This document shows, one piece after another, positions 35,421-58,400 of a DNA stretch of 64,000 nt. How positions within the stretch are numbered: the stretch's first letter is position 1; each line of letters begins with the position of its first letter. This DNA is from Gordius sp. MW1 (Eukaryota; Nematomorpha; Gordioida; Gordea; Gordiidae), in the NCBI GenBank assembly GCA_964036665.1, contig OZ038527.1, positions 26,943,901 to 27,007,900 of the forward strand. The letters are read 5' to 3'. The notes below the pieces were generated by a model. It saw nothing but the letters and a program-made list of their open reading frames with translations. It did not search any database and had not been told where the DNA came from. The translations under genes were made by a program, and so were the position numbers.

Positions 35421-35887
35421 TTATGAGGAGGCTTTATCATAAGAACTAGACTTGTCGTAAGACGGTGAATCTGCATGTTTTTCATAACCGTTACCAAAAT
35501 CTTTTTCATAACTTTTTGCTTTATCATAATCGTAACTATCATCGTAACCACTATCAAGACCTGTACCATCTTTACCTATGGATTCTGGATAAAAAATTGA
35601 ATTGGGATATGAATAATAGGGATCATTTTCAATATTTGGTGATATGAATTCCATGTATGGATAGCTGTATTGGTAGTCGAAATCAAAATCGAAATCATAG
35701 TATTCCCGGTAATAGTAATTGGTGTACATTTTAGTCATCTTCCTTAAGCTATATTTACCCATTACTTCGTCCTGCGGTAGTTTTTCCAACAACTTTAGCA
35801 CTAACCACAACTCTTCCTCGTCAGGAACGTATGAATCTGGTAGTTCCAATTTATATTTCCATGGCAGATGATTGCGTGGATCTTGGG
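35421..35887 (-). CDS. Last exon: tyrosine-rich cytoplasmic tail
   Basis: Phase 1-in exon that starts QDPRNHLPWKYKLELP and ends DKASS with TAA at 35423-35421. The first 40 residues are an ordinary acidic helix (EEELWLVLKLLEKLPQ). The rest is low-complexity and rich in Tyr, Asp and Ser, with 24 tyrosines in 154 residues, including TNYYYREYYDFDFDFDY, a YPYM (YxxM-type) site and repeated SYDK/GYEK units. The phase fits the membrane exon exactly. Function is unknown; phosphotyrosine docking or self-association are possibilities only. Confidence 0.7.
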
Positions 35888-38800
35888 CTTATTATAATTA
35901 TTAAAATAGTTATACATTGCAAAAATTAAATTATCACGCAAGATCTTATGGACACTTAAATAGGATAAGGAGCCTAAGTAAAGCTTATGATAAAATATGC
36001 AAAGGGTGAAATGGGCATTAAAAGAGTGCTTTATGGCTAATTATGTAAAATACGTTTTTGTTAATATTACTGATTAAAGATTTGCAACCCGTTACCTAAT
36101 TGCTTTAAGCCTAAGAATAAATTATGGATCTTTTAATTAACAAATGATTTATATATTTAATGTTGAATGCTATCTATTGCTAATTACTGTATTTGTAGTA
36201 TATTTTTATTGAAATCGCCATTCCTATTAAAAGCGCAATGGCGAAAAAACCAATTGCCAAATACCCAATAAGGATATGTAAGGCTAATGATACTGCTGGT
36301 TTAGCTGCTATGACAGTTTTGCAATTACCTAAAAACATCAAGTTAATATATTTATAAGATTTATAATTTAACTTAAAGATATTATTAAACTTCTTCATTC
36401 GATTGTACATACATAACATAATTATTCAAAGTGGAAATCACAACCTTTGAATATGATGGACAAATTATTCATTTCGAGCATGGAATAGATAGACTGCTCA
36501 TCAAAGCATAAAATTTGTACCATTTAATCTACCATATTGATGATAACATGATAAAGTAATGATTATATAGATATTAGTAATTTTTCTAAATTAAATAATT
36601 TTAAAAGGCTAAATAAAAAATATAGAACTGTGTAGATATCTAAAACAGCATTCTAAAATCAATATCATTTATAAAATACATAAAAAATTATAAATGAAAA
36701 AAACTGTGATAAAAGTTTGATTAATAATTTAGCGCCATCTATAAAATTTATAACTTGTAAGGAACGTAAATTGACAATTTATTTACCTAAAAATAAAAAA
36801 GATTTATTTAATTTATTTTTATATTTTTTTTTTAATTTTTGATTTATATTACGGGACTGATTATGAAAAGGAGTTTTAAGATTTTTCAACTGATAAAATA
36901 ATTAATTGTAAAATTTGTAAAGGCTTGATTAATAAGATAATAACAATAAATAAAGGTTTATTGGATTATTAGGATCATATGTGCTGGAAATTATGGTTAA
37001 AACAAAAAGGCACAGCGCAAAACACAATGTTAGCTATACACCTGTTGTTATAATCAAAATGGAGGAAAAATCGACACACAGTTTACCATATGGACATATG
37101 ACGAGTAGTCTATCTAGTCTATGATTCCAAGTTACATAAATTTGGGGTAGTGTGGATGCCTATGTCAAACTTTTTATTAATTGTTATGATTTATGAATCG
37201 ATTACACAGGTATATTATGGTATCCCGTAATCTGACATTCCAATAGAGAATTTTACGTTGAACAATAATAAGTTTTTAGTTTTTTTCCTAGAGGTCCAGA
37301 TTTTGTGATTAATGAGGCTATAAGTACAAAAAACGGTCTTCTTAATTTTTTTATGCTTAAATTTATATTTAATACTTATATAATCATTTAGACCATTTAT
37401 TGGTCTATGGGATTATAATTTAATTTTTTGCTTCACTGTCACTCTTACTTTTACCCACGTTTATACCGCATAAAATCGTCTTACTATCTCTGGGAAATCA
37501 GAGTACATTAGAGTACTAAATGCGTATGCTATTTTTACCAACAAACATCACTCTTTCCCTTCATTTACTCCTCTCTCTTTCTCCTCTCGGTCTAATCTCA
37601 TCCCCATCTCCCTCGTGTGCTAAAGCTAGCCATATTTCGCTCTGCTTGATACGTTTTATATTTAGATATATATGTTGTTGTGATTTTGATTTTAAACTTT
37701 TTGTTGTAAAATGCAATATGGTTTCGAGATGACAGCCCTTTTAGCTTAGAGATCGGTTTCAACACATCTTTTTACACAATTATAGCAATACTGGACCACT
37801 AGGGGAAAAACTAAAAACATTATCGTTGAGAGTAAAATTATCAAAAATATGAGTCAGACTGCGGCTTATTTTATTGTAGACCTGTGTTATGTGAAATTCT
37901 TCGATAAAAATATCAAAGAATCTGACAATGTATAAAATGTTCTCTATGTGTAACCTCCTTCAGTTGTAATAATTATGGTGGCTTCATCTACCACTACACT
38001 ATCGCCGTTGGCTATTTTATAAGGGGATTCTCTGATGAGAATTCCCACACGAGAGGATATGTCATCTACCGGATCTTCAAAGAAGAGCTTAAACACAATC
38101 AGGAAGTAACCTTCCCTATATGTAAAATTATTTAGGTAATTATGAAATATTCTGACAAGTTCCACTTTTAAAAATTTAAAATATTTTGTTAAGGTGTGTA
38201 AGAGACTAAATATAAATGATAATGACTACTTGTCGTAGTCCATATTCAAACGAACGTAGCTCTCATCAAAATTTAGAGAAAATTTGTGTTGCAACTAAAA
38301 TAAATTGCATACATAGTGAATACTCTTTAACAAAAATCAGAAAGGGGTTTTGAAATAGATATAAAAATATGAGTTTACAGATTACTTTAAACACAATCTA
38401 TAAGGATTTAAGGGTGTGATTTAATTTAAAGCAAATCACAAAAGTTACCAGCATGCTTATGTGATTTCTTAGGAAAATTGTTTCTGCATGTGATTCATTT
38501 TGAGCCCTCTTGACATCAAATCTGACGTTCAGCAAACAATTGAATTTATTTGATGCTTTATAGGATAAATATTGTAAACAAATGATTAGGTCAGAAATAA
38601 AAATATAAGCGGTTTTAGGCTAAAGTTTTCAGTTCAAAATCTTTAACACTTACTTATAAGGATGAAAAAATATAATAATTTTTTAAGCCGCTTGAGAAAG
38701 ATGGCCTAATATTTCTATTAGTTGCTGCACACTTTTAACTTAATTTAGTTTTTTTAGATAAGATGGAACTAACATATTTATAAGTCTCTATCATGCGCTA

Positions 38801-41800
38801 AATGTGAAATATGCAAGCTATGAATACGTGTAGGCCAAACTCATTTAATTTAGCAACTTACGACAATAATAAAAGAACTTGTCTTATAATCACTATTTAT
38901 ATGTCGTTTGCATAGTGGATTCGGCAGAGCTAGGTATATGTACTCAGATCATCTATTATTTTTTAGAAAGTTATAAGATTATAAAAATCTAAAAATAGTC
39001 TAAGTTCTTATTCTAACACAATATCTCATATGTGACATACCTGGTGTACATGTGTAAGAACCTGCAGACTTTTCTTCATTTAAGCACTTACAGCTTGATC
39101 CTACACAATCCGTATCACGTGCTAAAGCTTTGCATTCTTTTGTGCTTAAACAAGCTTCTCCTATCTTTTTCCCTATCATTCATATTATTAATAAAGTAAT
39201 CTTATATTATAAACTTAATAACCACTAGATGCATTGAAGCAAAGGAACTACCACATAGTATCTACTTTTTTAAAATGATAATCTAATTAATCCAATTATA
39301 ATTAAACGTGTTTGCTATTTTATAGCCCTCTAGGCTAGGTAGCTTATTTATTGCCCCTAAAATGGCGTAAAATTATTAAAAATAATTATTAAATCTCAAA
39401 GCATTATTAGCAACTAGAAACAGAGGCCGCTTAAATTTTATTAAGATTGATTACCATAAAGTGATAAACGTGAAAATAAAAAACGGTCTAAAGTGAAGAT
39501 TTATTGAAAAGGTTTCAAATATGTATTATGTAACTTAAAAATGGGTAACATTAAAATTTAGTTTTAGCATGCGATTCTTTGGCTTGCGAAACAAACCTGG
39601 AATTAATATATGTCAAGTAAAACTTAGCTAGTCACTATTTGCCGCCTGATTTCAAAAATCTTTTTATCGAAACGAAATCAAACAAAATTAGCTTTGTTTC
39701 ATGTTTTCGGCAAACATTTGAATACATTATAAATATTAGAGGTATGCATGTCATCGCATCCTAGCCTTAATTTAACTTATGATTATTTGACCTAAAATAG
39801 CATTCGCACATTCAGCTGAATACAGTATCAAAATCGAATATACACCTTTTTTGATCAACTGGCGTCAATCAGTGAAATAAACATAAGTATTTGAGTAAAT
39901 TGTACTAACCCAGCTTGCACTTCTTAGTTTCTTCATACATAGCCTCCTCACAGGTGCACTTGGCGTAGAGACAAGTGTAGCCAAATCCCAAATGACTACA
40001 TCTTACTTTGGTGTCGCATAAGCCTCCTGCCTGCAGCGCTTCATTTTATAAAAGTTTATTTGACATTTTCCGGTTCAGTATTTAAAAAAGGGATTTCTAA
40101 GTTATAGTCATTGTTGAAAGATTTTTTAATAGATTTAATTACATTAGAGTATCGGCAATCGTAGCATAGAATAATATTTTCAAATGCGTTTTATTAATTA
40201 ACGTAACGACAATTTAAAGGATGTTGACTAACTTTAAAAAGTTGTAAATTGTGGCAAGTGTAAAGTGAGCAAAGGTTATAGATGAAAATCACTAAAATGT
40301 TAATTATTGCATAGACATGTTGTTTGGTCATGTTCGTCTCTTCCCTAATATAATATTCGTTGGCTGGTAGCTTACTATGATGTTACTTATATTATATTAC
40401 CATCATATTAAGAATTATATCGTTTGAACAATTTCAAGACTACTACATAAATTTTTTAAATAAATTGCAAATTAATAGGGATACTCATACGTATAAAGCA
40501 GACTTCATATTTTGGGCATTTGCGATGTTTTTACAAACATACTTAATAGTCTTTCTAAATAATGATAGATTTGTTAATATTACAATTCAAGTTTAGTAAA
40601 CCTTTGACCAATTTATGAAGATTTTATTGCTAACATAGCGAAATGGGACCCTTAGTTATTTAGTGTTTGGTATCTTATAATCGAGGTAAAATGCTTATTG
40701 TAAACCTGAATTTCAACTGGAACAATATATATGAAAAATGAATAAATGTGATTGAATCTTTAGTCATAGCATCATGGGTCTTATTACTTTAAATGTTAGA
40801 CACCAGATAGAAATAAGTCGTCTTCGGATATATAATTAAACAATTTACGCTGATTTCTTATAGTACCCATAGCTTATAGCTCAATTGTATAGATCCCATG
40901 AAAGTTTACCTTTAAGACAGCGGTTGTCGTTGTAAGAACTATGAGAATTGCACATACAAAGCTTTTTATCAGCTAATTCGCGACATTCACTCATCTCAAC
41001 CATTGCCGAACATTCCTTATGAGCTGTACATTCATCGCCTAATTTCTTTTCTTAAATGTTACATAATTTAAAAGATTAAAAAACAAACAAATTTAGCCTC
41101 AGAGAAGGAGGCGTAAATAATCAATAATATATTTTAAAAGCCCAATTTACAAAAAAACCCTTCTTTTATCTCAATATCAATTCGGACTTTAAGGTGGCCA
41201 CATTGATGTGCTATGTGATTGGGCGACTAAAATAGTGGCAACAGCAAATTAAGTCTATATAAAGCATGGTAAACATATTACTTTTTAAAAATTACCCCTT
41301 CATTCGTTACCTACCTTTAAAGAGACACCCTATATTACTTCTAGCTAAACCAAAGATCACATTTATATTTGCACAGCTTCCCTGGATTAAGAGAGACTTT
41401 GGGAAAACAACTTATTATAGCTTTAACGTTAACATATTTCATTTCATCGGAACGTATTTTAACTAAATTGTAGTAAAGGATGTTGTATAATACGTTTGAA
41501 ACAATTGTAATCGACGTCTTTTTCGGATTCTTTGGTATATTCGTGGTCGCATTTACACTTGCCATAATGATCGGTGCCGCGTTCTATTATGCACACTAAC
41601 CCAAGCATACAATGACCGGCTTGGCATCGCTGTTCACCGAGTTTACCTAAAATCATACTGGATTAAAAACCCTTTTTTAAAATAGGAGTTTGTTGGAAGG
41701 CATTTATATAAAGTGTCTCCGTATGCCATACATAACTCAATCACTAATAAAGCCTTATTCCTATGTATTATAAATTGTTCGAATGATAGAATGATTCATG

Positions 41801-44800
41801 ATTTTATGCATATATTCTTGTGCTTTATAATGATAAAAAGTTAATATCGTGCTACAAAGTTGGGATTGTTATTAATTAAGCTCTTCAATCTATTTTAAAA
41901 TTTAATGCATAGTCTGTAAATTGAGGGTTATACCAGGAACACAAGCACGATGATTTTTTTTAGCGCAAACCGTTAATCCCGGAGCATAATCTGTGACGCA
42001 TTTACAAATTTTATCGACACATCGCATGTTGCCTCGCATGGCACATGGCCGCGTAGCGCTACAACGCTCTCCGTAGTATATATCTGAGGATGAAATAATA
42101 AAGTATTATTTAAGAATTTTAAACGAAACCCTTATAATTAGCTGGAATATTTATAAAATTTTATTGGGTGAAAATAACTTTGAGATTATCTTATATAATA
42201 GTTTTGTCCCATTATTTCATCTAAGCAATTCATAAAACATCTTATGTTTATAAAACAACAAATAAGTGTTCTGATTAAAATCACTTTTCAATTGACACTT
42301 ATCTTTTAAAATCTTAATAACGTTCTATGTACATTAAAATTATGTATTAATGGAAAACATCGATCACCTTTTGTAAAGCATAGGTAATTGCTATCGATAT
42401 AACAATCAGCTTTTAAGACGGTTATGGATTTGCCTATAAAGCGTAGATATAGGCATTCACCTACACCCTCAACTTCTAATCGACTATCTTTACTAAATAG
42501 AATTAAACTCATATTAGTATTAAGATAAAGTATTTAAACCACATTTTGAAGAAAGTTATGCATTAACTTAAAATATTTTAACTGGATATCATAATCTCTA
42601 AAATAAGTATCAAAACTTTTCATACCAGCTGCGACATGATAAACAAGTTTACCCTTTTAAAAAGTCAGAATCAAAAAATTATACATTTGAATGTCAAGAA
42701 GCTTCCTACTGAGTTTAAATTTGGTGCTTTTTATATGCAATTTTAACTAATTACTAAACGAAATCATACACAAAATAATTATTAATGGAACCTAAAACAT
42801 TAATACTGACCTTGGATCAAACCTAACTTGTCGACCATCCTCGTGATAATATAAATTGTTTTTGCTACGAATCCCAAACCTCCATGAGATATCTTGTTCA
42901 TCAATCTCTAACGTTTGACTGAGAACCACCTTTAAGTAATGAAAGCGTCAGTTATTGCAATATAATTTTTTAATATTAAATTAAAAACTACTCGTTATAA
43001 GGCCTTTATAGACTTTATAGATTCTGTATGCGCTTATTAAGCCTAACAAACATCTATACGAATCCAGCGGGCCTGGGGAAATGCACATCTGGCGAAAGGT
43101 CAAAATAGTTGCAAATAAGTGAGCTTATCTATATATTTATAGAATAAATGATTTATTTATACAATATATATTATATTTGTAGCTTAAGTTCTATTTTGCT
43201 GGTGGATTAAATATACACAACACGTGATATACATATTATTTCCTCGAATCCGGTCAGCTTATAAACGGCCAACTCATAAATTAAGGGTTAACGATTGATG
43301 GATGTCGTATTTGTTATACTAAACAATCAATATATTAGAATTAAATCTCAAATGGGGAGGGAATTTGATGTGCATCTAATCCTAACCCTAACCTAAAACG
43401 CTGACTTAAAACACTACCCCGAACCTTAACCCTGTCCCTTAAAGTTTTATAGTGCAGCAATAATTGTTAAATTCATACGCATGCGCATTATTAAAAACGA
43501 TAAATGCGCAGCTATCTGACTGGTCTGTTAAATACATATGCATGCGCATTATAACAGGGTTAACGATTGTTAACCCGTTAACGATTTTTACGAGCTGGCC
43601 GTTTATTAGTTGACTTGAAAGGTATTTCCTCTCGCGTTTTTCTTATAATCGTATGTTTGAGCGCGTTTTATGCATTTCTCACGCGCGTATACTATTAGCG
43701 TGGTTATATCCCATTGATTCCTAATAAAGTCAAATAACCTTTAACAATATTTCTATTTAGAATCACAATATTTAGTAAAATTTTACAAACCTATACAAAA
43801 TTTGTGTGCCCAATGAAAACCAGAGTGACAAAGATATATAATGTGCAAGAGATAATTGTAAAACAGATCATTTATATTCCTCACATAAAATATTCAAAAT
43901 TTAGTGATAAAATAATATGTTGCTTGATTTTGAATTATTTGCCGCCTAATATTAGTAAATTCGGCACATGTGCATTTCGCCAGGTGTGCAGGAGCGAAAA
44001 AAATGTCATCAATTCACAGCAAGCGGGCCTTTAGTTTAGAAAAAAATAGGCCCCTTGAGCCTTATTATCAGTATGAGATTTTTATTTGTTTAAACAAGTG
44101 ACACGCCTTATAATTTTCAATATAAGCTAGCCCCTCATTGGACCATCTAATGCTATGTTAGATTTATTTAACAAGAATTACACAAGACTCGGGATCCACA
44201 ATATAAAACTTCCAAATTTTATAAAAAAAAATAAGTAGTAATATTAAACATTATAGGAAAAGCTGAATTGTGAAATTTATAAAACATCATAAAAAATGTC
44301 ATTTTTATACATTGTCATACAAAATAATACTTTTGAATAATTTTTTTATCCAGAGCTGCCTTACTCTAGTATGAACCATTGTGGTTGAATTTTTACTTTA
44401 CGAGTTTTAGATTAGGTAAATTATACATTTAATTTAGCTTCGAATATTAAGTTTTAACCTTGTCCATGACAACAATATTTGGTGTAATAAATTTAACTTA
44501 ACACATAATTAATCAATATACCATACCATGAGGATTATAAATTACGAGTTGAATTTGATCTTTAACTTTCTCAAATGTAGAATTATCTCACTCAGATTCT
44601 TTAAAAAACAGAAATTAAGGAAAGTGTAAATGAATCATGGATGAATGAAGAGTTTATTTTGGGTACCAATTAATTGCAAATTATTATTTTGCTTTTTGTA
44701 GTATTAGCACTCACAATTTCTAAAAACAACGAATTTAAAGTAAGTTTAAAAAAGCATATTAAATGCTCAGAAAAACTGAATTATTAATTATCCTAATTCC

Positions 44801-47800
44801 TAATAATTTGGCTAGTATTGGTATCCTCCTCCTCTATTAGAAATTTAGGATTATAATTGAAAAGAGGTCGAAAAATTTTAGTCCAAATAGTCTTAAAATT
44901 AAGAGATTTACATATAAAATCTAATTTAAAATTAATTTTTTTTATATATATATTGTTTATTTGAACGTAAAAACATTATAAGAACGAAGTGTTAGAGGCT
45001 GAGGTAGGGAGTCGATTTGCCGATGAGGATGGGGGATGTTCAGATTTGAGTGGTTGGTATTAATCAAGGGAGGGGTCAATTGAGTCATTGTCATAAAATA
45101 TTCTTAGAGCGCTTTTGATGTTGAAATTATCAATTTTTTTAGAAATTTGTTTAGCAGTTTTGACACTGGAGGAGTTTGGGGATTGTTTATGCTGGGGGGT
45201 ATTTTTAAAAATATTATCAATATGGAAATTAAAAAGGAATCTTTAATAGGTTTGGACAGTTTTCAACGTTGGGGTCCTCTTATATAAAGTGTGAAAGGTA
45301 AGTCTGAAAAGTTTATCCCAGTTAGTAAGATTTGAGGGAGAGTTTGTTATGGAAGTTATAAGATTTTAAAAACTGTTAAGTAGCCGGGCGAGCACCCCTA
45401 GGGAATCTTGATATAGTGCTGGGAAAGGTTAAGGCTAAAAATGAATCACTCCAAGAATAGTTCAAAGAAGCGGTAATTGGGACTGCCTAAGGATTGAGGA
45501 TCTGAGTTGGACGTGCAAGGGGCATCATGAGGAGCATCCTCTATTATGGAGGCAAGAGGTGGAATAAGAGGGCTAGCAGGTGGGATTTTCCCAGAGGAGA
45601 TAAAACGAGCAGAAGGGTGGCCATGTATTATAAAACAGTTATTTTTTTTGAGGCTAACAAGTTTTTTGCATATACAACAAAAGGATTTAGTGAAACCCAT
45701 ATTTATATTATTTTATAAAAGAGGTATTGAAGCAGTTGGGAAAATGTTATTAAGAGATATATAAAATATATGGATATTAGATTTGTAAAAATCCTCTAAA
45801 CATGTCAATTATTTCTATCCTAGCACATTAACAAAACTCCAATTAATCCTAAAGTGTTTGCGATATAATTTTAAATTTTTTAACCCTTCGTAGGTTGGGT
45901 CAAACATGCTAACACGGATGAAATTTGGGGTCATAATTACCCCAAGCCTTAAATCTATATATATAAAGTAAAGTGTATGTATGTGTGTTTATATGTATTT
46001 ATGTATGTATGTATGTATGTGTGTATGTATGTATGTATGTATGTATGTGTGTATGTATGTATGTATGTATGTATGTATGTATGTATGTATGTATGTATGT
46101 ATGTATGTATGTATGTATGTATGTATGTATGTATGTATGTATGTATGTATGTATGTATGTATGTATGTATGTATGTATGTATGTATGTATGTATGTATGT
46201 ATGTATGTATGTATGTATGTATGTATGTATGTATGTATGTATGTATGTATGTATGTATGTATGTATGTATGTATGTATGTATGTATGTATGTATGTATGT
46301 ATGTATGTATGTATGTATGTATGTATGTATGTATGTATGTATGTATGTATGTATGTATGTATGTATGTATGTATGTATGTATGTATGTATGTATGTATGT
46401 ATGTATGTATGTATGTATGTATGTATGTATGTATGTATGTATGTATGTATGTATGTATGTATGTATGTATGTATGTATGTATGTATGTATGTATGTATGT
46501 ATGTATGTATGTATGTATGTATGTATGTATGTATGTATGTATGTATGTATGTATGTATGTATGTATGTATGTATGTATGTATGTATGTATGTATGTATGT
46601 ATGTATGTATGTATGTATGTATGTATGTATGTATGTATGTATGTATGTATGTATGTATGTATGTATGTATGTATGTATGTATGTATGTATGTATGTATGT
46701 ATGTATGTATGTATGTATGTATGTATGTATGTATGTATGTATGTATGTATGTATGTATGTATGTATGTATGTATGTATGTATGTATGTATGTATGTATGT
46801 ATGTATGTATGTATGTATGTATGTATGTATGTATGTATGTATGTATGTATGTATGTATGTATGTATGTATGTATGTATGTATGTATGTATGTATGTATGT
46901 ATGTATGTATGTATGTATGTATGCATGTATGTATGTATGTATGTATGTATGTATGTATGTATGTATGTATGTATGTATGTATGTATGTATGTATGTATGT
47001 ATGTATGTATGTATGTATGTATGTATGTATGTATGTATGTATGTATGTATGTATGTATGTATGTATGTATGTATGTATGTATGTATGTATGTATGTATGT
47101 ATGTATGTATGTATGTATGTATGTATGTATGTATGTATGTATGTATGTATGTATGTATGTATGTATGTATGTATGTATGTATGTATGTATGTATGTATGT
47201 ATGTACGTAAGGGCTAAATTCTGAAACTACCGGCCCGAATCGCGCGAAAATTTAGCCATAGGTGCACAGGGCGGCCAGGGGTAAAATAGCTTTTTCAGAA
47301 TTCTAAAATTCCTTTTAGTTTTCGAGATATTGGGTTTTATACGTTTTGCGTTTATTAAAATGTCAATCAAACGCACCTCCTCGCGTTCGTTGAAAATTTG
47401 AATATACAGAGAGTTCTGTAGTAAAAGTGTATCACTTATAGTATTTTGTAAAACGTAATCTTTTCTTAACGGTGACAACATAAAATTTATGAATTAAATT
47501 TCTTAAACGCCATCTTTTCTTAACGGTGACAACATAAAATTTATGAATTAACCTGAAATAAATGAAATTATAGATTATTTGAGAAAATATATAGGTGAAG
47601 AAGATGAATTTTTCTTATTATCATTAAATGAGAAAGATGAAAGTATATATATAATTTAAATGTAATGAAAAATAATCCAGCGTTGATTATTCTGAGTAAA
47701 TGCTATTTAGTATTGCAATATATATAAATGTCTATTAATTTTTTACTTCAGATTAGTTGCAAATTTTATCACTTATACTCTGGCATGAAATTATAATCGT

Positions 47801-50800
47801 CTTATGCAAATGTCATTCTTTAGAAGGATAAAAAAAATTTATAAAAGTTTTACATTTAAAATCAATTTAATTTTGATATATCTCAGTTCTTCGGACATTA
47901 TTAAGTTCAGAATTAAAAGTTTTATTCAGAAACAAATAATTATAATTATGATATTGTTTCTTAATTGCAAAAAAATCAAAAAATTGCTTGAAGGGCCAGG
48001 ACCAAAGATTTTTCCCTTGGGGGGGGGGCATGGGGTTTTCTCTCTTGGGTGGGCCTGGGCCTTTGACCCTCTATAACTTTTAAAAATCTTTGCATAATAA
48101 ACACTTACCAATTATATTTGATATATTCTTAATCTATTGAAATTTACTATAAGATGATATATATTCTGCTACCCGGGTAAATGGCAAAACAACGTTAGCC
48201 GGGTTCATCTAGTTACTTATATATAGCTACCACTTGGTACAATTAAGATAAAAGCAAAAAATATTAGTATAGGTCAAAAAAGACAAAGAGGGCGACCATC
48301 AAAAGCTAAAAATGCTTTTATTTTATAATAGATTACTAATGAAATATAATATTTTATTGCGTTTTATATATTTTATTGTATTTTAATAAAAGATAATCAA
48401 AAGCATCATGGGCGTAGCCAGGTTATGAATTAGGGGGGGGGGGGCAGATTTAAAAAAAATTTCCTGAGAGCAAAAAAAAAGTCTCGACTATCTAAAATTA
48501 GTGAATTGGGCAATTAAAGGGTTTTGACGGCCTTGGCAGGCAATCTAGTCATAAAACCCTGATGGGTTCTAGCAGAAAATTTTGGACAAATATGATTAAT
48601 GATAAAAGTATTAATATTATGTAGAATGATATCTACTTCCTGGGGCAGTCTGGTGTCTTTACGGGAAAAAATGTTCAAACTAGTTTATTTTTCATACTAA
48701 TTTATTATTATAAAAAAGATGGGGAGGGGGGGGGGCCGCAAAAAAATTATAAAATATTTGGGGTGCAGCGTATATAAAAAGGTTAAGAACCACTGATAAA
48801 ATACTTCATCAATAGGCGTTTTTTGATCATCAAATAAATAACTAATTAGTAAGATTTTGGAAGGAGCATTTTGAAATTTTAGCTTTACTTATAAACAATT
48901 TGGCCAATGGTCATTTTTTTATTGGTCAGTACCAAGAGACGGTCTATAAAAAAACAAAAAAAAATTCGAATCACAATTTGGCCAATGGTCATTTTTTCCA
49001 TTGGTCAGTACCCAGAGACGGTCCATAAATACATACTAGTTAAAAAAAAACAAAAAAAAATTCGATTTATACTTTAGCCAATGGTCATTTTTTTCATTGG
49101 TCAGCAGCCAGCGGACGGCCAAAAACTCATATTATCAATGGTATTAACAAAAACAATATATTAATTTGAAAAAATAACAAAAAAAAATTTCGATTTATAC
49201 TTTGGCCAATGGTCATTTTTTTCATTGGTCGGTAGCCAGCGGACGGCCAAAAAGTCACATTATCAATGTTATTAACAAGTAAATTATATTAATTTAATTT
49301 AAATAAAAATAAAAATTTTGCCCTCTCCGGGATTCGAACCAGCAATTAAGAATTTGCCCTCGCCGGGATTCGAACCCACATCAGTAGAGGCATAGGCTTT
49401 TGTAGGGGCACAGGAACCCATATCAGTAAAGGTATAGGCCCTCGTAGGAAAGGGCATAGGGTAATTATCAATGTTAACCTAATAAACCCAATTCAAAAAC
49501 GAAAAAAAAAAATTTCGATTTATTTGGCCAATGGTCATTTTTTTTATTGGTCAGTAGGCAGCGGACGGTCAAAAATTTATATTATCAATGGTATTAACAA
49601 GAACAAAATTTTAATTTAATTTAAAAAAAATAAAAAAATTCGTCCTCTCCTGGGCTTGTACCCGAACCTCCAGGTCACAAAGCTGGCGCCAATAACTTGA
49701 AGGGTAACGGACGGACAACGGACAACGGACACCAAAAAACGAGCCCATAAATTGCATAGCAATTAAAAATGAAAAATAAGGGCAATATTTAAATGAAAAA
49801 TTTTACATCAGAAATTTTATGAGGCTATAAAAATAGTTACATATACATTTTATATGTATAGGTCACAAATTTGCTATTTTTCACTATATTCCTAACTATT
49901 TCGTCTGCAATAAATATTTTAAAACAGTCAAGAGGAACTTTGGCTGCCCGTTCATATAACTTTATTCCAGTTAAATGCAATACAAAATTGTGTTCCTTGT
50001 TTTAACATTTTTATTAGGACAATTTTTGTGCCACTTAGTATTGTCTCCCTCTGAAATACATCAAATAATAAAAGCTTCTAAGTTATCTATATATATAAAG
50101 TAAAGTGTATGTATGTGTGTATGTATGTATGTAAGGGCTAAATTTTGAAACTACCGGCCCGAATCGCGCGAAAATTTAGCCATAGATGCCCAGGGCGACG
50201 AGGGGTAAAATAGCTTTTTTAGAATCCTAAAATTCCTTTTAGTTTTAAATATATCGGACATTTCGTTTTAAAAAAGGGCTAAACTCTGAAACTACCGGCC
50301 CGATTCGCGCGAAAATTTAGCCTTAGATGCCCAGGGCGGCCAAGGGTAAATAGCTTTTTCAGAACCCTAAAATTCCTTTTTGTTTTAAAAATCGGACATT
50401 TCCCGGCCAGTTTCATTTATAGCATCATATACAATAATGACGTCATACATAAAAGGCTGAAGTTTTCTCGACTTTTATTATATTAAAGAAAATTGTATTT
50501 TTTAGCAAAACAACGTTTGCCGGTTCAGCTAGTTCTCTATAAAAGTAACTATTTTTGTTAGGCATATCAATTAACTCTTCTTCATCTTAATCTCCTGTTA
50601 ACTCACTCTCAGACTCATGACTACTCATGTAGATATAATCATCACAATCATCAAGAATTATTTGATAAAATGTTGTAACCTTTATTATAAACCATCTCTA
50701 GATAAAGAACTATCAAAAATACTGCACTTTTTAAGATTAGACATTAAAAAATCAAAAAATGTGGGGAAAATCACACAAATAAGCACTTTAAAATACCACG

Positions 50801-53800
50801 AGGAAAAATTATCATGTTTAAGTCAGAGTTTAAAATTTGAATCTTTTAAATAAAAAGAAACGTATACAAAAAATTTCTTAACAAATGGGTTTACAACAAT
50901 GGGTTTTGATAACATATTTCAAAAAAAAAATGTTGAATATTTTTTCATTTTATGGAAGGTGTGGTCATGGAAGACCCCGGGCAGCTAAAACACTCTCTTC
51001 TTGAAAACTATTGGATAAAAACTAGCCAAATTTTGAGGAAATATTCTAAGGTAAATTTTGTTAAGCCACTCAAAAAATGAAATTGTAATATTCACTAATT
51101 TATTTTGTACAGCATTTTTAAACGGCTTGGGATCATTATGACTCCACCCGACCTACGAAGTGTTAAATTTGCTCCCCCTAGCCAACGCCGCTGAACTTTA
51201 AGTTATTCCATACATTCAGCGTTAGTTTATTTAATTTGGTGTCAATGGGGAGGGGGGGAGGGCGGGTTTTAGCAAAAAATCCTACCAATGCCTACGCTTA
51301 TATTGATATAGTTAGATAAAACTTATTTTTAAGAAGGGTAAGATTAATAGTAACTATATCGTCGATTGTTTTGGGGCTCCATAAGGATAATCCTCTCGTG
51401 TTACATCCTGTTGAAGCCGCATCACCATCCAACTTGGCTTCCTTCGTAGCAATGATACAGACCTCTCTATTAGGACTAACTCTAATTCCTTTGTCGGGGC
51501 AAGGCAAGCTACAATAAGCTAGGAAATAGAAGATGAATGCATAAAATAGACAAAACTGTGAGATGGGTTAATGTGTGAGTTAAATTATTTACTGCATTCG
51601 CTAGCATCCAGCATCGGAGTCCAACAAACCTTGTCATAGTATGCATCGCACTTTGCCGTCCTAAAACCAACTTTATTGAAGGTCAAACAACGTGGGCTTA
51701 TGAAAATGGTCTCCTCATATGCCCAAGTTCTAAAATCATTAACTTACTTTAAAATAGTTATTAAAATATCTCATATTAAATGATTTTCTTAGTAATACAC
51801 CTTTCAGCATGTTCATAAAAACACAGTCGCGTGGGCAAGGGCGGAGGGGGCAGGGTTGATTTTGAACGTCTCCCCGTTGGCAAATAAATTAAAACAAATT
51901 TGCCGAATTTTACGGAAAAACTCATTGATATTTATAAAACTTTCGTTAAATTTATTTGAGATTTTATATTATAAATCTACTGATCTTAACAATTTGTATA
52001 AAAAAAATTTTGTCAGTAGGTGTTTTAATATGAAAAAATATTTGATTCCCAATAACCTCTCTAAAAAACTATTTTAACTTGAGGAAGAAGCTAACACAAG
52101 CCTAATTTTAGTTTTTAGAGGTAATTTATTACCTAATTTTTATAAGCGTTTAACATGCTTATTTATACATAATTTAGATTCCCTGATTTAGAAATTTCGA
52201 GTGTCATTACCACACAACTAGAAAAAAGAATAATGATATAACAGAATATTTTTAGGGAGGGTCTAGGCTGTACCGTGCTTTGTCAAAATTTGCGGACTAT
52301 GCTTAGACTATAGACGGGCCAGGACCGGGTTTTTTATTGTACAAAGCCTAAGAAGCCCGTGCATATCGATAGTTAGAACAATAGCCTGGTTGGCAAATAC
52401 AGCAAAATTGAAAGAAGCTCTTTGCGCTTTTTTAAGTACATAAAAATCCAACGTTGATATTTAATGTATGTATAATTTTGATTAAATTTTGTTTAATCAT
52501 ATAATTTTTGACATTAAATTAAAACATTCCCCGTCCTTCCCTCCATTTGGGCATCCTGCCTACGCCACTTTAAGCCGCATTTGCTCAACTGAACTATCGC
52601 TCAAAGGATCTACAACAAATCAAAATGTAGTTTAAATTTGAAAAGCATGTTTATCATGGGCGTAGCCAGCATTAGAATTAGATAGGAGCAATAATTATTT
52701 AAGGAGGGGCAGATGTTTATAACTAACTAGTTTTATATTTATTCATATAAAAACTTTATAAGGTTACAAAAGTTTATATTAAGCATTTATATATAATAGA
52801 TATAATTGTATAAATATTTAAATTTTTATTATTGAGTTGTGCAGTATATGTTTTAGACACATTAGCATAGCGCTTAAAATGATATGCACACTTTATAATT
52901 ACCTCCTCTAATAATGATATTAACCCGACAGATACCACTAAATGTTTGGCCGAACCAATTTATATAAAATAGAAATTGGGGCATCTCAATATGCTCTAGA
53001 TGACTATCAATTTAAAAATTTTAGAAAAATTCCCTTCCGGAAATCAAGGGGTGTCACCTAAAGGTTACACTGGGAGGCATAAAAATAGGCGAATTTTAAA
53101 ATTTTATTAAATGACTAAGATAAGTGAAAAAAGTTAGTTAATTGTATTGGAACGATGATCAAAAATAAATGTGAGATCAAATATTTCAATATGGGCATAA
53201 ATTCTGGTTGCTTAGCTGCATACAGAGCAGAGCCGTTGAGTTCAATTTCTTCATTGTTAACCGTCTATCGCGTTCTGACCTTGGGAAAGCTAAGATTTGA
53301 GTGCACTTAAGAAGTTGGCCGTATTTTTAACAATAATTTGGAATTCATGCAGAGTTTAATGATTTTGTTTAGACGATAGAGCTGGCAGGCATGGGCGTAG
53401 TCAGCATTGGAATTAGAGTGGGGCAAATGATTTAAGGATGGCATGATCATTTTTAGAGATTTTAGCCATAATTTTAATAAAAAATTTTGGATTCAGAGGG
53501 GGGCAGTCGCCCTTCCTTGCCCTACCCCCATGCTGGCAGGCATTGTAGTTAGCGACATCTAATCCAAATAATGGGAAGCACCAATTTCTGCCCCTAAAAG
53601 ATACTTTTGTGGCATCAACATTTAATCAGAGCTATCTACGCAGTCCATAAACTTATAACATAACTATGAGCATTCAAAAGTATTTTCTTGAACTTTTAAA
53701 GAGGCGTGATTCTACTATAGGTAATAGGTTTAACAATTAAGAAGCCTCGTTATGATTATCATGCCTACATACTGCCATTGCCATGTTATAAATATTCCTA

Positions 53801-56062
53801 TGCGTAATAAATTCTTTCCTTTTTAGGGATTCTATATCGTTCAATAGGCATTTGAAACGATTTAAACGCAATGTTTTAGTAGCTCCAATATTCACTTTTG
53901 AAAGACAATTTGATAATTAAGCGATTCTAAAGGTATTTTTAGAATATACAGCAAGAGACAAAATTTAAAGTCAGCTAAGTGATTTATGACAGCTCCCTAA
54001 TCCTCTTTCATTTTGCTTGACAACGATAACGTGGCTTCTTGGTACTGTTCCAAGGTAACAAGATACCGGTTTTAGGATTATCTTGAAGCAAAATCTAAAA
54101 GGCTTATCTTTTATAAATTTCTTTGTTGTGTGATTTCCTAAAAGGCAGCATGGATTTATTCATTGGGTTACACTATTTAATTAACCCTATCATTTAAAAT
54201 ATTCAGAAAATCTCAAACTTTAGAAAATTTGTGTTGTTTAGAGTTGACTGATTATGTCTTGAAACCGATTTCTACGCATACCATTGGATATTATTTAATT
54301 GAAGAATAGGACTTCTTGAGTTTTCAAAACATTTAGACATTTTTGAGAGACTAATACCAGTTAAAAAAATTATATAAATTTTAAATTCTCTATCGTTAAT
54401 TTTAAATGATTGGTTTGCAAATAAATTAAAGATTTAAAGCAAATTAATCAAACTTTTATATTATTTGAATGGGAGTAACGAAAGTCATAATTCTATTTTC
54501 GTTTTTTTTTGACTTTTTATAAGGGCGGACCTTTTGCTACGAACCTAAAAATGGGACCAAGTTTTTAAAAATACCATCTACGATCAAAATCATTGGGAAA
54601 TTTTATAAAAGTATTATAAAATCAGAATGAATTATAGAAATGTAGATCTCTATCTCAGGCCGCTTTAAAATTATCAAATGTAAGTAATTTTAGCCCTATT
54701 TGGCATATTAGGAGGTACAATTTTGTCTATAATATCATGTATCCGCCATTTTTCATATCAAAAAATCCGAGAAAATCGAAAATATTGATTTACCAATACA
54801 TTTTAAAGCTTAAAAACGCAAATTTTTGCTACTCTTGACTATTCTACACCCACCCCCTTTATACTATATACTTTGGCAAAGAAAAATAGGAAAAAATCAT
54901 TAATGGAATCATAATCTTTTAATTAAATCATTAAAAGGGTTGCGCTAGGCACATAAGCTCTGCCCAGTGTAACATTTAGGTGACGTTCAGCTTTAAGGCA
55001 AATTTTAAAGTCTTTAAAGTACTCATATAAATTTTAAATTACTAAATGTTAGAAAAATTATAGAGATTTTAAATATGTAAATTAAGTTGCAAAAACTTAT
55101 TGTAGTGTACATAAATATTGAATATAAGAAGGTAGGTCGGAATTGCAATTTTTCCGATTTTTGAACGAGTATAATTCAAGAACCAATGAAGGAGAAGTAA
55201 TAAAATTGTATCAAATAATTTATCCCAATCCAGTCTTTTAAATTTATTTTTAAAAGGTTTTTATCTTAAGTAGTTTTTGAGAAAAGTGACTATAAAGTTG
55301 CCTCACCTAAAGGTTACACTGGTACCTGTCGGGTTTAATCGTTCTTCATGATAGTCTAATCAAAAATAAACAATAAGAACGCCACGGTCTTAATTCATAA
55401 TAATCACAGTCTAAAATTTTTGGGTTTAAAATATAGTAATTTCTAAGCGTTTATTTGTTATGTTTAATGGATTTACATGATATCAGCTGTGTAATTTCTG
55501 TCAAAGCAATGATCAGACGTGCATTCAGCTAAGGTTTTGTTCGTGTAATATGTTTTAAAGGTTCCTGGTTGAGCTAGATCCGTGATGCCGATCCATGCTC
55601 TACTCTTATTACCAAGTTTTGCTTCAATCCAAGACTATTCATATTAAATGCAATATATTTGACAACAAAGATATTTGCAGTTTAGTATTTACATAGGCGT
55701 AGCCAGCATTGGAATTAGAGGGGGGAGCAATAATGATCCAATTTTTTTTTTAAATTTCATATTATTATTGCTAAAATTATTAAAAATTATCATTTTGCCC
55801 CTCCCTAAATCATTATTGCCCCCCCCCCCTGTAATAATTCAATAATTTGCCCTGGGGTAAAGATGTCGCTTTATGAAATAATATTAAGAACTATGTACCA
55901 ACTCTTCCGGCTGGTCAGGTTCATAAATTTTAGCGCCCGACTTCTCGCAAGAGGCCACAGTGCCGCTGAATGTCAAATTACTATCAACGTCAATCAAAAT
56001 GCATCTGCTAGTCAAAGGGAAAAACTCATAATTTGAGGGGCAAGGATTTGGGCAAGGATTTT
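35421..56062 (-). CDS. Putative receptor: 2x C-type lectin, 5x EB-like, SEA-like, TM, Tyr-rich tail (5' incomplete)
   Basis: Fourteen exons on one strand join with GT-AG sites and matching phases: 56062-55899, 55634-55477, 51729-51593, 51518-51355, 42929-42811, 42492-42368, 42083-41934, 41646-41494, 41038-40910, 40026-39910, 39172-39041, 38164-37955, 36328-36188, 35887-35421. They encode 788 residues. Domain order is lectin 1, lectin 2, five six-cysteine EB/EGF-like modules on phase 1-1 exons, a SEA-like stretch, one membrane helix, and a 154-residue cytoplasmic tail. The second lectin domain starts at 51.5 kb and ends at 42.4 kb, which ties the two exon clusters together. The signal peptide and any further N-terminal domains would lie upstream of 56062 and were not found. 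Multi-lectin/EB architecture suggests an extracellular recognition or scavenger-type receptor, but the ligand is unknown. A two-gene interpretation is not excluded without transcripts. Confidence 0.7.
36188..36328 (-). CDS. Transmembrane exon of the receptor
   Basis: Exon between acceptor tgtttttag and donor gtaatt, phase 1-in/1-out. It starts GNCKTVIAAKPAVS, then a continuous hydrophobic run of about 24 residues (LALHILIGYLAIGFFAIALL...), followed by KIYYKY, a basic stop-transfer edge. A single-pass segment with the C terminus in the cytoplasm fits the upstream extracellular modules. Confidence 0.75.
36485..37121. mobile_element. MITE in the receptor intron between the SEA-like and TM exons
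   Basis: Left ATAGATAGACTGCTCAT and right ATGACGAGTAGTCTATCTAG (decayed) are inverted and match the 29511 element. About 640 bp, non-coding. Confidence 0.55.
37955..38164 (-). CDS. SEA-like juxtamembrane exon
   Basis: Seventy codons, phase 1-in/1-out, acceptor aaaag, donor gttaca. Residues run VELVRIFHNYL, YREGYFLIVFKLFFEDP, then NGDSVVVDEATIIITTEG. Length, alternation of strands and the late GDSVVV recall a SEA domain, whose autoproteolysis site is usually G-SVVV; the inserted D would probably stop cleavage. SEA domains usually sit just outside a membrane helix, as here. The match is by eye and moderate. Confidence 0.45.
39041..42083 (-). CDS. Five EB/EGF-like cysteine modules, one per exon
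   Basis: Exons 42083-41934, 41646-41494, 41038-40910, 40026-39910 and 39172-39041 are all phase 1-in/1-out, the classic arrangement for shuffled extracellular modules. Most carry a G-E/D-x-C start and about six cysteines with a CxC pair, for example GEACLSTKECKAL with SSCKCLNEEK, and GLCDTKVRCSHLG with AKCTCEE. The pattern is that of EB modules common in nematode and arthropod secreted and membrane proteins. They probably form a disulfide-bonded stalk between the lectin domains and the membrane. Confidence 0.75.
42368..51518 (-). CDS. C-type lectin domain 2, split by an 8.4-kb intron
   Basis: Exon 51518-51355 (acceptor tttcctag) gives YCSLPCPDKG, NREVCIIATKEAK and GCNTRGLSLWSPKTIDDI. Like its counterpart in domain 1 it is exactly 164 nt, phase 1-in/0-out, and the last 17 residues align with CEKSGAKIYEPDQPEEL. 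Exon 42929-42811 gives SWRFGIRSKNN and YYHEDGRQVRF (phase 0-in/2-out). Exon 42492-42368 gives GECLYLRF and KADCYIDSNYLCF, the C-terminal cysteine pair. Sugar-binding motifs are again absent. The intron between 51355 and 42929 contains two Helitrons, a LINE fragment and a composite repeat. Confidence 0.7.
42930..43261. other. Intron of the lectin-2 domain, no feature seen
   Basis: AT-rich; no further exon recognized. Confidence 0.4.
43262..43605. mobile_element. MITE with TTA target duplication
   Basis: Ends TAAACGGCCAACTC and GAGCTGGCCGTTTA are inverted; TTA flanks both sides (43259-43261, 43606-43608). Inside, CATANGCATGCGCATTAT occurs twice 62 bp apart. A 3-bp TWA duplication is typical of PIF/Harbinger; the family call is tentative. 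Confidence 0.55.
43609..44942. other. Intron DNA, nothing identified
   Basis: AT-rich. A minus-strand stretch near 43930-44040 (APAHLAKCTCAEF) looks cysteine-containing but has stops close by and no splice support. Confidence 0.35.
44943..45700 (-). mobile_element. RLE-type LINE copy 4, internally deleted; keeps the N-terminal zinc finger
   Basis: The 3' UTR (ACGTTCAAATAAACAATATA in sense) is fused directly to a sequence equivalent to about position 620 of copy 1, so RT and endonuclease are deleted. It extends further 5' than copy 1: 45700-45446 reads SFCCICKKLVSLKKNNCFII followed by HGH, a plausible CCHH zinc finger as in R2-group N termini, then the PPASPLIPPLASIIED segment shared with copy 1. 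Confidence 0.75.
45954..48212 (+). mobile_element. Helitron-like element with a giant microsatellite
   Basis: Starts TCTATATATATAAAGTAAAG after A and ends in a GGCAAA...GCC hairpin, GGGTTCAT and CTAG before T, the Helitron A/T insertion context. The same 5' and 3' ends bound 50086-50532. After the microsatellite comes AAGGGCTAAATTCTGAAACT and CGGCCCGAATCGCGCGAAAA, shared with the shorter copy. No Rep/helicase inside; non-autonomous. Confidence 0.7.
45975..47204. repeat. (ATGT)n microsatellite, about 1.23 kb
   Basis: Roughly 300 tetranucleotide units, imperfect (GTGT, TTTA) for the first ~75 bp and then almost pure, with one ATGC at about 46921. Because four does not divide by three, all frames are open and give MYVC/TYIH polymers, which are not genes. 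The related Helitron at 50086 has only about six units. Confidence 0.95.
48213..48896. other. Intron DNA with a GGCGTAGCCAGG-type MITE end
   Basis: CATGGGCGTAGCCAGG at about 48408 followed by a G-run and a decayed body (to about 48780) is a copy of the MITE family seen near 52660, 53390 and 55692. Nothing else identified. Confidence 0.45.
48897..49765 (+). repeat. Composite repeat copy 4 (partial)
   Basis: Four to five ~120-bp units (GGCCAATGGTCATTTTTT...CATTGGTCAG), a tRNA-like block with two T-arms (CCGGGATTCGAACC at about 49327 and 49362), one more unit, a degenerate T-arm piece (49640-49700) and the terminal AGCCCATAAATTGCATAGCA. The hairpin GC arm is missing. Confidence 0.65.
49766..50085. 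other. No gene seen
   Basis: AT-rich spacer between composite repeat copy 4 and the short Helitron. Confidence 0.4.
50086..50532 (+). mobile_element. Short Helitron-like element (447 bp)
   Basis: A|TCTATATATATAAAGTAAAG at the left and a GCAAA...TTTGC hairpin, CGGTTCAG and CTAG|T at the right. Holds about six ATGT units and two tandem copies of a ~130-bp block beginning GGGCTAAA(T/C)TCTGAAACTA. No coding sequence. Confidence 0.75.
50533..51354. other. Intron DNA, nothing identified
   Basis: AT-rich; one G-run with MITE-like context near 51245. Confidence 0.35.
51593..56062 (-). CDS. C-type lectin domain 1 (three exons)
   Basis: Exon 56062-55899 carries the N-terminal half: NPCPNPCPSNYEF, then SRCILID and SCEKSGAKIYEPDQPEEL. 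It ends in phase 0 at gtacat. Exon 55634-55477 gives SWIEAKLGNKSRAWIGITD, the WIG core of the fold, and ends phase 2. Exon 51729-51593 gives PRCLTF, AKCDAYYDKVCW and ends phase 1 at gtaaat. No EPN or WND calcium/sugar motif is visible, so calcium-dependent sugar binding is not predicted. The middle intron (3.7 kb) holds a MITE and decayed lectin-like exons. Confidence 0.75.
51730..53149. other. Intron DNA with MITE fragments
   Basis: CATGGGCGTAGCCAGCATTA at 52658 and an inverted CTGCCTACGCC near 52556 are MITE ends. No exon recognized. Confidence 0.35.
53150..53660 (-). pseudogene. Decayed lectin-like exon pair inside the lectin-1 intron
   Basis: At 53650-53545 the minus strand reads VDATKVSFRGRNWCFPLFG and ends VANYNAC, with cysteine spacing close to that of the C-terminal lectin exon. 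At 53264-53180 it reads NNEEIELNGSALYAAKQPEF, which aligns with the GAKIYEPDQPEEL end of the N-terminal lectin exon, but the cysteine is missing and a stop lies just upstream. The order, C-half then N-half, repeats the 51729/51518 order, so a former third lectin domain is suggested. A MITE (53390-53540) sits between the two. Confidence 0.35.
53390..53540. mobile_element. Complete ~150-bp MITE of the GGCGTAGTCAG family
   Basis: Left CATGGGCGTAGTCAGCATTG, right CCTACCCCCATG; GCTGGCAGGCAT occurs on both sides, either as target duplication or part of the terminal repeat. Inserted beside the decayed lectin C-half exon. Confidence 0.5.
53661..55476. other. Intron DNA; one weak lectin-like piece
   Basis: The minus strand near 54070-54010 reads YLVTLEQYQEATLSLSSK, which recalls the G-x-LVTL-E segment of a C-type lectin N-half, but has no supported splice sites. 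Otherwise nothing identified. Confidence 0.3.
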
Positions 56063-56234: not shown

Positions 56235-58100
56235 CTACGCCTATGTAGGAGTCAATAAAATGTATTAATAACGAATATTAGTTACTAGGAATTCATAATT
56301 TAGCTTTATACAATTTATTTAATCCGAATCAATTAAAAATAGGATGCGATGGAATTTATATTTTAATTAAACCGTTAAAATGTTAACTTAGCTTAGATTG
56401 CTATGTCGCGGGGAATGAGTTTTTAAGGATAAGAAATAAAAATTATGATTGTTTAATAATATATTTAGAATTACTTATTTCTTTTTATTAGGTAAATTTT
56501 AAAACATGAAAAAATCAAGTATATTTATATATAATTTAAATTTATACTTAAAGATCTATTTATCATGCGATTGTTTGTTAAAAATTATATCACAAATTTA
56601 TAAAAATTAGATATTACCCATTATATCCAAGATAGCTCGTCTGAATAGGGTTAGAAACCAAAAATATTTAAAACCGATATATGTCAAATTCATTTAGCTT
56701 ATGTGAATGTTCTACACAAAATAATTACTATTCTAGAAATATTAATGATATTTTTTATTCGTAAAAAGTCTTGAAGCATAAACTTGCTATAAATAAACGG
56801 GCTGTTATAACTAACAGCAATTAATGTGATTTAAAGATATTTTAACTAAATTAAACTATATGAATCAATTTAATAATATACCACTGTTCTACAAAAGATT
56901 TAAATAAATTTAAAAATGTAATATATTTAATTATGCCTTAAACGGTTTTATAGCTATAATCCAGTGACTTAACTTGCATTTTTCCCATGGGCGTAAGCCG
57001 AACTTTGATTTTAAACAAGTGGGCAGGTGTAAACGGCGATTGATAAATATCATCCTCATAGACATAGTCACAATTAATAATCAGCTATTTCTATTTCTCT
57101 TTCAAAATTCGCTTGAACTCTACCTTTTGAAATGCCTTCTCAATTTTGTTTCCAAATTTTAAATCTTCCCTCTTTCGTTTATCTTCGACTCGCACCATGA
57201 GCAAGAGTTAGAGACCTGCAACTCGTGGTGCGGAAAAACCGAGATGAGATGAGACGGGTATTTTAACTTCGAGACATGACAAGATCTTAAATTCGGGTCT
57301 CGGCTTAAAATTTTAATAAATTTAGTTTATACTTCTATTTAGTATGATTAACATTTCGGATGTTAAATGAAAATTAATATAATTGGGATTTCTTTATTCT
57401 ATATATCTTTATAAATAAAGATGTAACTCCGTTTTCTTTGTTTGCGGTTAACTCTTAAAGTTCTCGTCAGATTGCCACCAAATAGGGCCAGATCAAAGCC
57501 TTAGCATCCTCAATGGTTTATATACTTTTTCTCGACCTGCGACAGCTGTAACCCTGTGTTTTGGTGGTGTTTACCGCCATCTAGCGGACGAGAGATACAA
57601 CGTTTTGATATTTATTTATCGTTATGGTGCTACTTATTACTGACTTAAAGTCTTTTCCACGATTGCTTTGTCATTTGTGTCTCACTTTTTTACTCAACTA
57701 AGCACGTTTTTTTACAGTATAGTAAATAATCTCACTACCTAAAAACATCACCATTTTTTTAAATAAAAAAAGCGTGCGTTTTTGCCAAGATTCGCACGTT
57801 TCGTACTTTTCTTCATTGGGAAGTTCGGTTATTAATTACGACTACAAAATCATCCTCCAATTATCCGTTATAATCAGACCAAACTTTGCTCAGAAGTATG
57901 CGCCCATTTGCGAGATGCATATGCTAGCAAAGAAAAGGATAATGCATTTAAATCATTTTATTTACAAATATTTTCGTTCTTATATCCTTTTATATAATTT
58001 CATTATATATTTAGTCCTTTTTTTATCAGAGACCAAAAAAACCCGACTGCTCAGCACGTTCGGGCGTACACGTTGATAAGATTTGGGCATAATTAAATTA
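56235..58100. other. Upstream of the receptor exons; no first exon found
   Basis: AT-rich. A Helitron-like 5' start (TCTATATATCTTTATAAATA at about 57396) may begin the element whose helicase fragment lies at 58.1 kb. A signal-peptide exon for the receptor was sought and not found. Confidence 0.35.
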
Positions 58101-58104
58101 GAAA

Positions 58105-58400
58105 CATACTTGATATGGTTCACTTAGCTGTAAATCTAAAAAATGGGCACAACCTTTATTTTAAAAATGCAAATGTCAGACGAATAACCTTAAATCCCCT
58201 AGATATAACGTTAACAGCCTTCTTCAAGCTATGTCAACATGATGATTTTGCGCTAATGTTTCTATATTACGAAGTGTCTTGCCCATGTATTTCGCGTACC
58301 AGATCCTTTCAACGTTGCAAACGCGGAAAGCGAATCGCATTACGGCTTGACATTCAAAGGCCTTAATAGAGGTTTTACATACACCAACTCTTTCCTCGAA
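58105..58400 (+). pseudogene. Helitron replicase/helicase fragment
   Basis: MVHLAVNLKNGHNLYF then TLTAFFKLCQHDDFALMFLY and YEVSC match the segment just upstream of the helicase domain in animal Helitron proteins (VHLAV-LENGQ-YF, TTLTAFF-LC--D-FA-TLLY-EVP). A stop after DIQRP and a shifted continuation (FTYTNSFLEDGN) show decay. It abuts the truncated start of LINE copy 3. Confidence 0.6.

Follow-up and report, generated by a model that had tools for sequence, protein, structure and literature searches.

The lectin-like and EB-module exons that lie on the minus strand of this DNA raise the question of whether they belong to a single gene and, if so, what kind of protein it encodes. The window, by which we mean the whole stretch of DNA analysed here (64,000 nt; C1:26943901–27007900 of a source genome of 211.8 Mb in 12 contigs), is eukaryotic, with spliced genes and many tandem repeats. 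From the sequence alone it had been proposed that 14 minus-strand exons join in phase between positions 56062 and 35421. We rebuilt this chain letter by letter and it holds: AG and GT are found at every border, the phases agree and the sole stop codon is the terminal TAA. The start phases are 1, 0 and 2 for the three exons of the first C-type-lectin-like domain (CTLD1), again 1, 0 and 2 for those of the second (CTLD2), and 1 for each of the other eight. These exons are numbered E1–E14 below, and E0 denotes a further exon upstream of them.

The source genome was searched with four queries, namely CTLD1, CTLD2, the part from the EB modules to the transmembrane (TM) segment and the tail. The tail query picks out an array on C1 between 26.727 and 27.091 Mb that contains nine tails, that of the window copy included. 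All 14 exons are matched in five of the eight other copies (B, F, H, C and D), 13 of them in copy I and 12 in copy G; for copy E the matches are limited to E9–E14. In the seven copies examined beyond the window copy (copy E left out) the exon order is identical throughout, and E4 and E5 lie on the same strand, separated by 843 to 18619 bases. When the borders of the window copy are transferred to these seven copies, an AG acceptor is present for 91 of 98 exons and a GT donor for 89 of the 91 non-terminal ones, and exon length is equal modulo 3 for 91 of 98, with E2 and E3 of copy G and E13 of copy I placed by guess. A diverged copy on C4 contains 11 of the gene's 15 exons, namely E1–E7, E9–E11 and E14, in unchanged order with 31–51% identity per exon; within the part of the locus that was covered (all but about 6 kb), no clear match was obtained for E0, E8, E12 and E13. 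The exons, their order and most of their borders recur in paralogous copies of this genome, and the exon chain can be placed above chance on this comparison of sequences. We read the array as a receptor family that has been expanded in tandem. As this case shows, paralogues within a single genome allow one to test a domain order that was first guessed from the sequence alone.

The alternative to a single gene is a pair of genes, with an upstream lectin gene (56.7–51.3 kb) followed by a downstream EB-receptor gene (42.9–35.4 kb). The E4–E5 intron (42930–51354), which contains a (TGTA)309 array along with repeats also found elsewhere in the window, is indeed long at 8.4 kb, and the donor that follows position 51355, GTTACT, is weak. 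Against such a division, CTLD2 is completed across this intron, the exons of CTLD1 and CTLD2 have equal phase patterns, and in seven other array copies E5 comes after E4 on the same strand, 0.8–18.6 kb away. The copy on C4 also has E4 and then E5. Because this order recurs in the array and on C4, the 8.4 kb stretch is taken to be an intron, and we regard two separate genes as highly improbable. The earlier proposal that the lectin and EB clusters form one gene is thus borne out by the exon order of the paralogues and by a CTLD2 that spans the intron.

The window copy might also be a pseudogene, or a gene that is not expressed in full. With the transferred borders an early stop is encountered in copy B and frame shifts in copies D, G and H, and as a consequence some copies of the array may be degenerating. 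Three acceptors of copy I are not AG. Copies F, C and I are free of stops up to the transferred end. The disruption of other array copies speaks for a pseudogene, as does the tail of the window copy, which ends at a point where several copies have frames that continue. The window copy itself, however, has an open frame of 803 amino acids in which every border is intact, and the pooled dN/dS lies at 0.24–0.56 in single exons except E2, E3 and E6, a value that belongs to the family and not to this copy. We hold an inactive window copy to be very unlikely.

While the chain of 14 exons stands, it was not complete, as the exon that carries the ATG had been missed. This exon, E0 (56618–56693), was found by paralogue comparison; a signal-peptide scan of the window did not pick it up. 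The stretch upstream of E1 is common to all copies compared, even to copy I, the most diverged of the array, and the open frame and ATG of E0 are retained in all eight array copies (the window copy counted, copy E left out). In seven of these eight E0 consists of 76 bases with a phase-1 donor, and in copy H of 74 bases, two shorter. Its start, MNLTYIGFKYFWFLTLFRRAILDIM, is hydrophobic, a property that the copies retain, and judged by eye E0 would encode a signal peptide. With E0 included the predicted protein consists of 803 amino acids, 49 of them cysteines, and we conclude that the window locus is one predicted gene of 15 exons (E0–E14). In terms of codon usage E5, E6 and E12 score middling and E13 scores as non-coding; in our weighing, conservation across the copies counts for more than these poor scores, and all four are kept as putative coding exons.

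CTLD1 is encoded by E1 (N-terminal part, 55899–56062), E2 (middle part with the WIGI motif and part of the long loop, 55477–55634) and E3 (C-terminal part, 51593–51729), all on the minus strand like the other exons of the gene. Besides the exon chain and the copies, E1 is placed by its Lectin_C match and E2 by Pfam. The Pfam family Lectin_C matches CTLD1 with 26.4 bits (cut-off 22.6) over residues 28–90 of 153, corresponding to profile positions 2–65 of 107. It is also found at E ≤ 1 in all five members of the CTLD1 alignment, with 2.8e-8 as the best value, and when the CTLD1 profile is compared with solved structures the best match is mannose receptor 1 (MRC1; 1e-14, residues 3–79 of 151). 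This profile support sits in the N-terminal half, the C-terminal half alone reaching 6.3 bits, a score equalled by 4 of 1000 shuffles. We assign CTLD1 as a C-type-lectin-like domain, as predicted by these matches. The profile search by which the sequence-only reading proposed to judge its lectin claim thus returned Lectin_C above the cut-off for CTLD1.

The positions given earlier for CTLD2 also proved correct, with the N-terminal half in E4 (51355–51518) and the C-terminal half in E5 (42811–42929, middle part of the domain) and E6 (42368–42492, C-terminal part). Here the exon chain and the copies are complemented by the match between E1 and E4 and, for E5 and E6, by a CTLD profile. CTLD2 of the window copy has no match in Pfam, one of five members of its alignment is weakly positive (E = 0.034), and the match of the CTLD2 profile to the PDB is weak (0.24). 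On a CTLD test profile built from ten stretches of three PDB chains (119 model positions), CTLD2 scores 15.5 bits across both introns over positions 12–118 of 119, and none of 1000 shuffles equals this. Its separate halves score 1.7 bits (N-terminal; 16 of 1000 shuffles) and 4.3 bits (C-terminal; 4 of 1000). In our reading CTLD2 is probably a real but degenerate CTLD, and with this qualification the claim of two lectin folds is supported.

E1 and E4 are equal in length (164 nt) and in start phase, and their ungapped match is equalled by 4 of 100000 shuffles. BLASTP gives no useful match between CTLD1 and CTLD2, and in an exon-wise comparison E2 and E5 are without similarity and E3 and E6 are weakly similar (z about 2). 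In view of the E1/E4 match and the phases, the two domains look like the product of an internal duplication. Ca2+-dependent sugar-binding C-type lectins are marked by EPN or QPD together with WND. None of these motifs occurs in the CTLD1 of six copies or the CTLD2 of seven that were checked, and with the defining features missing a lectin of this type was rejected.

The lectin part is followed by five EB modules, each of which sits in one phase 1-1 exon: E7 (41934–42083), E8 (41494–41646), E9 (40910–41050), E10 (39910–40038) and E11 (39041–39172). In the joined protein EB (PF01683) reaches 46.4 bits against a cut-off of 24.3 with four stretches at E ≤ 10, the best of them in E9. When searched alone, E8 gives no EB match, although the cysteine pattern is present. 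This pattern, searched on both strands, is confined within the window to the five EB exons, and together with the PF01683 score it confirms the number of modules that had been claimed. All five exons are placed by the exon chain, the cysteine pattern and the copies, and E9 by Pfam as well. Elsewhere in the genome, at C5:6.316–6.347 Mb, EB matches are densely clustered, with dozens of them within about 30 kb of a single strand.

E12 (37955–38110) encodes a juxtamembrane segment of about 52 residues that lacks cysteine and is retained in the copies. It had been called SEA-like, a label that the profile searches leave unsupported: Pfam gives no SEA match for E12–E14, and none is found at E ≤ 10 for E12 and the start of E13 in any of five members. 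A SEA domain spans about 100 residues. Designed 'Pizza' proteins were returned for the E12 profile with E values of 9.9e-6 and 1.5e-5; with a 24-residue overlap and no passing stretch they were taken as chance matches. E13 (36188–36328), which is placed by the exon chain, a TM scan and the copies, encodes the predicted transmembrane segment (approximately residues 617–642 of 803). Within the stretches scanned it is the only TM-like candidate of phase 1-1 that has reasonable splice sites, and the protein has one strong TM segment, which is followed by lysines. The membrane span and the tyrosine-rich tail of the earlier reading are both recovered, the latter in E14.

E14 (35421–35887), defined by the exon chain and the copies, ends with the stop codon TAA and contains the tail with its PWK...YxNYYYxxYYDFD module. 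The tail has 161 residues, of which 27 are tyrosines. Diverged forms of this module are found by the genome search at eight further loci, namely at 5.59 Mb on C4, 23.90 Mb on C5, 28.10 Mb on C1 (position 28099740), 0.143 and 26.46 Mb on C2, 25.72 Mb on C3, 0.104 Mb on C6 and 37.15 Mb on C8, and a further weak match (1.2e-5) lies at 14.41 Mb on C4. Except for C4, the exact positions of the others are C2:143021, C2:26457098, C3:25720794, C5:23899556, C6:104005 and C8:37149615. Those on C1, C3, C5 and C8 are located about 0.1–0.3 Mb from the contig end, and C2:0.143 and C6:0.104 are close to the contig start. EB matches are seen 54–85 kb from the tail-module loci on C2, C3 and C8. The C4 form is 41% identical to the window tail, the C5 form 33%, the C3 form 29% and the form at C1:28.10 28%. 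When seven members are aligned, 14 columns show no variation, including Y-x-N-Y-x-Y-x-x-Y-Y. Sequence conservation of this kind identifies the predicted tail as a conserved module and not a random tyrosine-rich string.

No worthwhile match to the tail module was found in Pfam or the PDB; synaptotagmin chains retrieved from the PDB with the profile of the tail search (E 0.2–1, no passing stretch) were taken as chance. The structure predicted from the single exon is poor (mean pLDDT 48.3). Neither an ITAM nor an NPxY motif was found when the tail was searched by pattern. Y-x-N and Y-x-x-hydrophobic sites, which by general rules may serve as SH2 or adaptor sites, are present in each of the six array tails that the check covered (those of copies A, B, C, D, F and I).

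The exons differ in their rates of change. Pooled over pairs of array copies, which are not independent of each other, dN/dS is 0.41 for E1, 0.93 for E2 and 1.34 for E3 (CTLD1 together 0.77), 0.53 for E4 and 0.56 for E5 (CTLD2 together 0.64), 0.39 for the EB modules together, 0.40 for E12, 0.38 for the TM exon and 0.33 for the tail. Among the exons compared dN is highest in E3. The C-terminal half of CTLD1, including the long loop, is by these sequence-based estimates the least constrained and fastest-changing part of the protein. In known CTLDs the long loop binds the ligand. Positive selection on this half is suggested by the pooled values only, the excess of E2 and E3 over the rest being non-significant in two independent pairs (B–C and A–F; P = 0.066) and also with the pair H–I added (P = 0.29). 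In view of this non-significant test, relaxed constraint may also explain the excess. E6 has a pooled dN/dS of 6.8, with 5 synonymous and 120 amino-acid-changing differences over 21 copy pairs; this excess may stem from gene conversion, from constraint acting at the DNA level or from chance.

Taken together, the product is probably a single-pass type I receptor with the order signal peptide–CTLD1–CTLD2–five EB modules–short juxtamembrane segment–TM–tyrosine-rich tail that serves in recognition or uptake and is one member of a family arranged in tandem. The section of CTLD1 with the long loop (end of E2 and start of E3) would bind, independently of Ca2+, a variable ligand of non-self or partner origin, such that CTLD1 provides the variable binding face and CTLD2 a structural or secondary one. 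The EB modules would act as a stalk that holds the lectin part off the membrane, and the tyrosines of the tail may recruit SH2 or clathrin adaptors and lead to signalling or uptake. The phrase 'recognition or scavenger receptor' used in the sequence-only reading is plausible and agrees both with the tandem arrangement and with the rapid change of the lectin part. A recognition repertoire would be expected to look like this, with one lectin part changing fastest next to a constant stalk, TM segment and tail. The same receptor could instead perform an endogenous task such as adhesion, gamete or tissue recognition or matrix binding, with ordinary tandem duplication and relaxed constraint on part of CTLD1. 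This would agree with the non-significant test on independent pairs, with the stops or frame shifts of copies B, D, G and H and with the old C4 copy in which the order is the same; the excess of amino-acid changes, however, lies in the C-terminal half of CTLD1 and is not spread over the protein, and we hold an endogenous task to be possible but clearly the less probable of the two. Rather doubtful, in our estimate, is a wider scheme, namely a receptor superfamily of one invertebrate lineage, absent from the literature searched, in which a new tail module is the defining part and is combined with diversifying lectin ectodomains in the array and with other ectodomains near the chromosome ends, and which would serve non-self recognition or allorecognition with the specificity in the long loop of CTLD1.

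Several known systems resemble the predicted receptor in part. In the mannose receptor family (MRC1, MRC2 and LY75), from which the best structure match of the CTLD1 profile comes, several CTLDs are present in one membrane protein, and ricin-type and fibronectin II domains precede many CTLDs. The window protein likewise has several CTLDs but only two, set on an EB stalk, and neither contains EPN, QPD or WND. Membership of this family was rejected in the absence of a fibronectin II or ricin domain, as Pfam lists EB as the only domain of the joined protein, and Lectin_C for CTLD1 when searched by itself. The insect phagocytic receptors Nimrod, Draper and Eater have small cysteine-rich repeats as a stalk, a single TM segment and tyrosine motifs. 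The window protein is alike in these three respects but adds lectin domains, and its tail is without ITAM or NPxY. CCxGY is the Nimrod-type motif; the 803-residue sequence contains no CC pair anywhere and hence no CCxGY, and a Nimrod-type receptor was discarded. With EB-module proteins (PF01683) it shares the five EB modules, and it differs from them by its CTLDs, TM segment and conserved tail. In a lineage that has been little studied, one would expect many novel domain orders. The suggestion that no described family has this domain order is upheld only as far as none was found in the literature searched (titles and passages with EB terms, mostly outside subscription papers), where the order is not stated; absence is not proven by this. 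In the oyster Ostrea edulis, genes with EB domains are reported to have expanded in tandem, with 31 and 11 copies in two groups (PMC9679249), and for this reason expansion as such is not new. The tail module near chromosome ends may serve as an entry point in the search for further receptors and for the proteins with which they signal. Invertebrates are not known to have antibodies, and their receptor repertoires are known mainly from a few well-studied groups.

The rest of the window contains a ribophorin I exon at 17644–18087 (minus strand; Pfam PF04597, 2.1e-23) and a spectrin repeat at 9167–9523 (minus strand; PF00435, 1.1e-7), and a frame at 8361–8900 (minus strand) resembles a further spectrin repeat below the cut-off. 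No tRNA (ARAGORN) and no Rfam family at gathering score were found in the window. The (TGTA)309 tandem array occupies 45974–47209, inside the 8.4 kb intron, with 98% matches and a strong G skew. The stretches 1–612, 4048–5658, 25247–27716, 44994–45592 and 58351–59249 appear to be fragments of one LINE-type element, named by eye; 44994–45592 matches 612–1 at 91%, and its start matches 27402–27707 at 89%. A repeat with units of about 96–129 bases and the word CCAATGG occurs in both orientations at 3221–3826, 11165–11422, 31367–32635 and 48948–49318. COX1 on contig C12 has an open frame when translated with the invertebrate mitochondrial code, and its single AGG codon falls on a site that is Lys in most animals. 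Searches for arthropod RR cuticle proteins (PF00379) and nematode cuticle collagens (PF01484) gave no match in the source genome; the control genomes gave none either, and these negatives do not prove absence. Outside the window, many COX1 matches are present on C1, C3, C4, C5 and C8, apart from the apparent mitochondrial contig C12, and the one on C8 is nearly full length.
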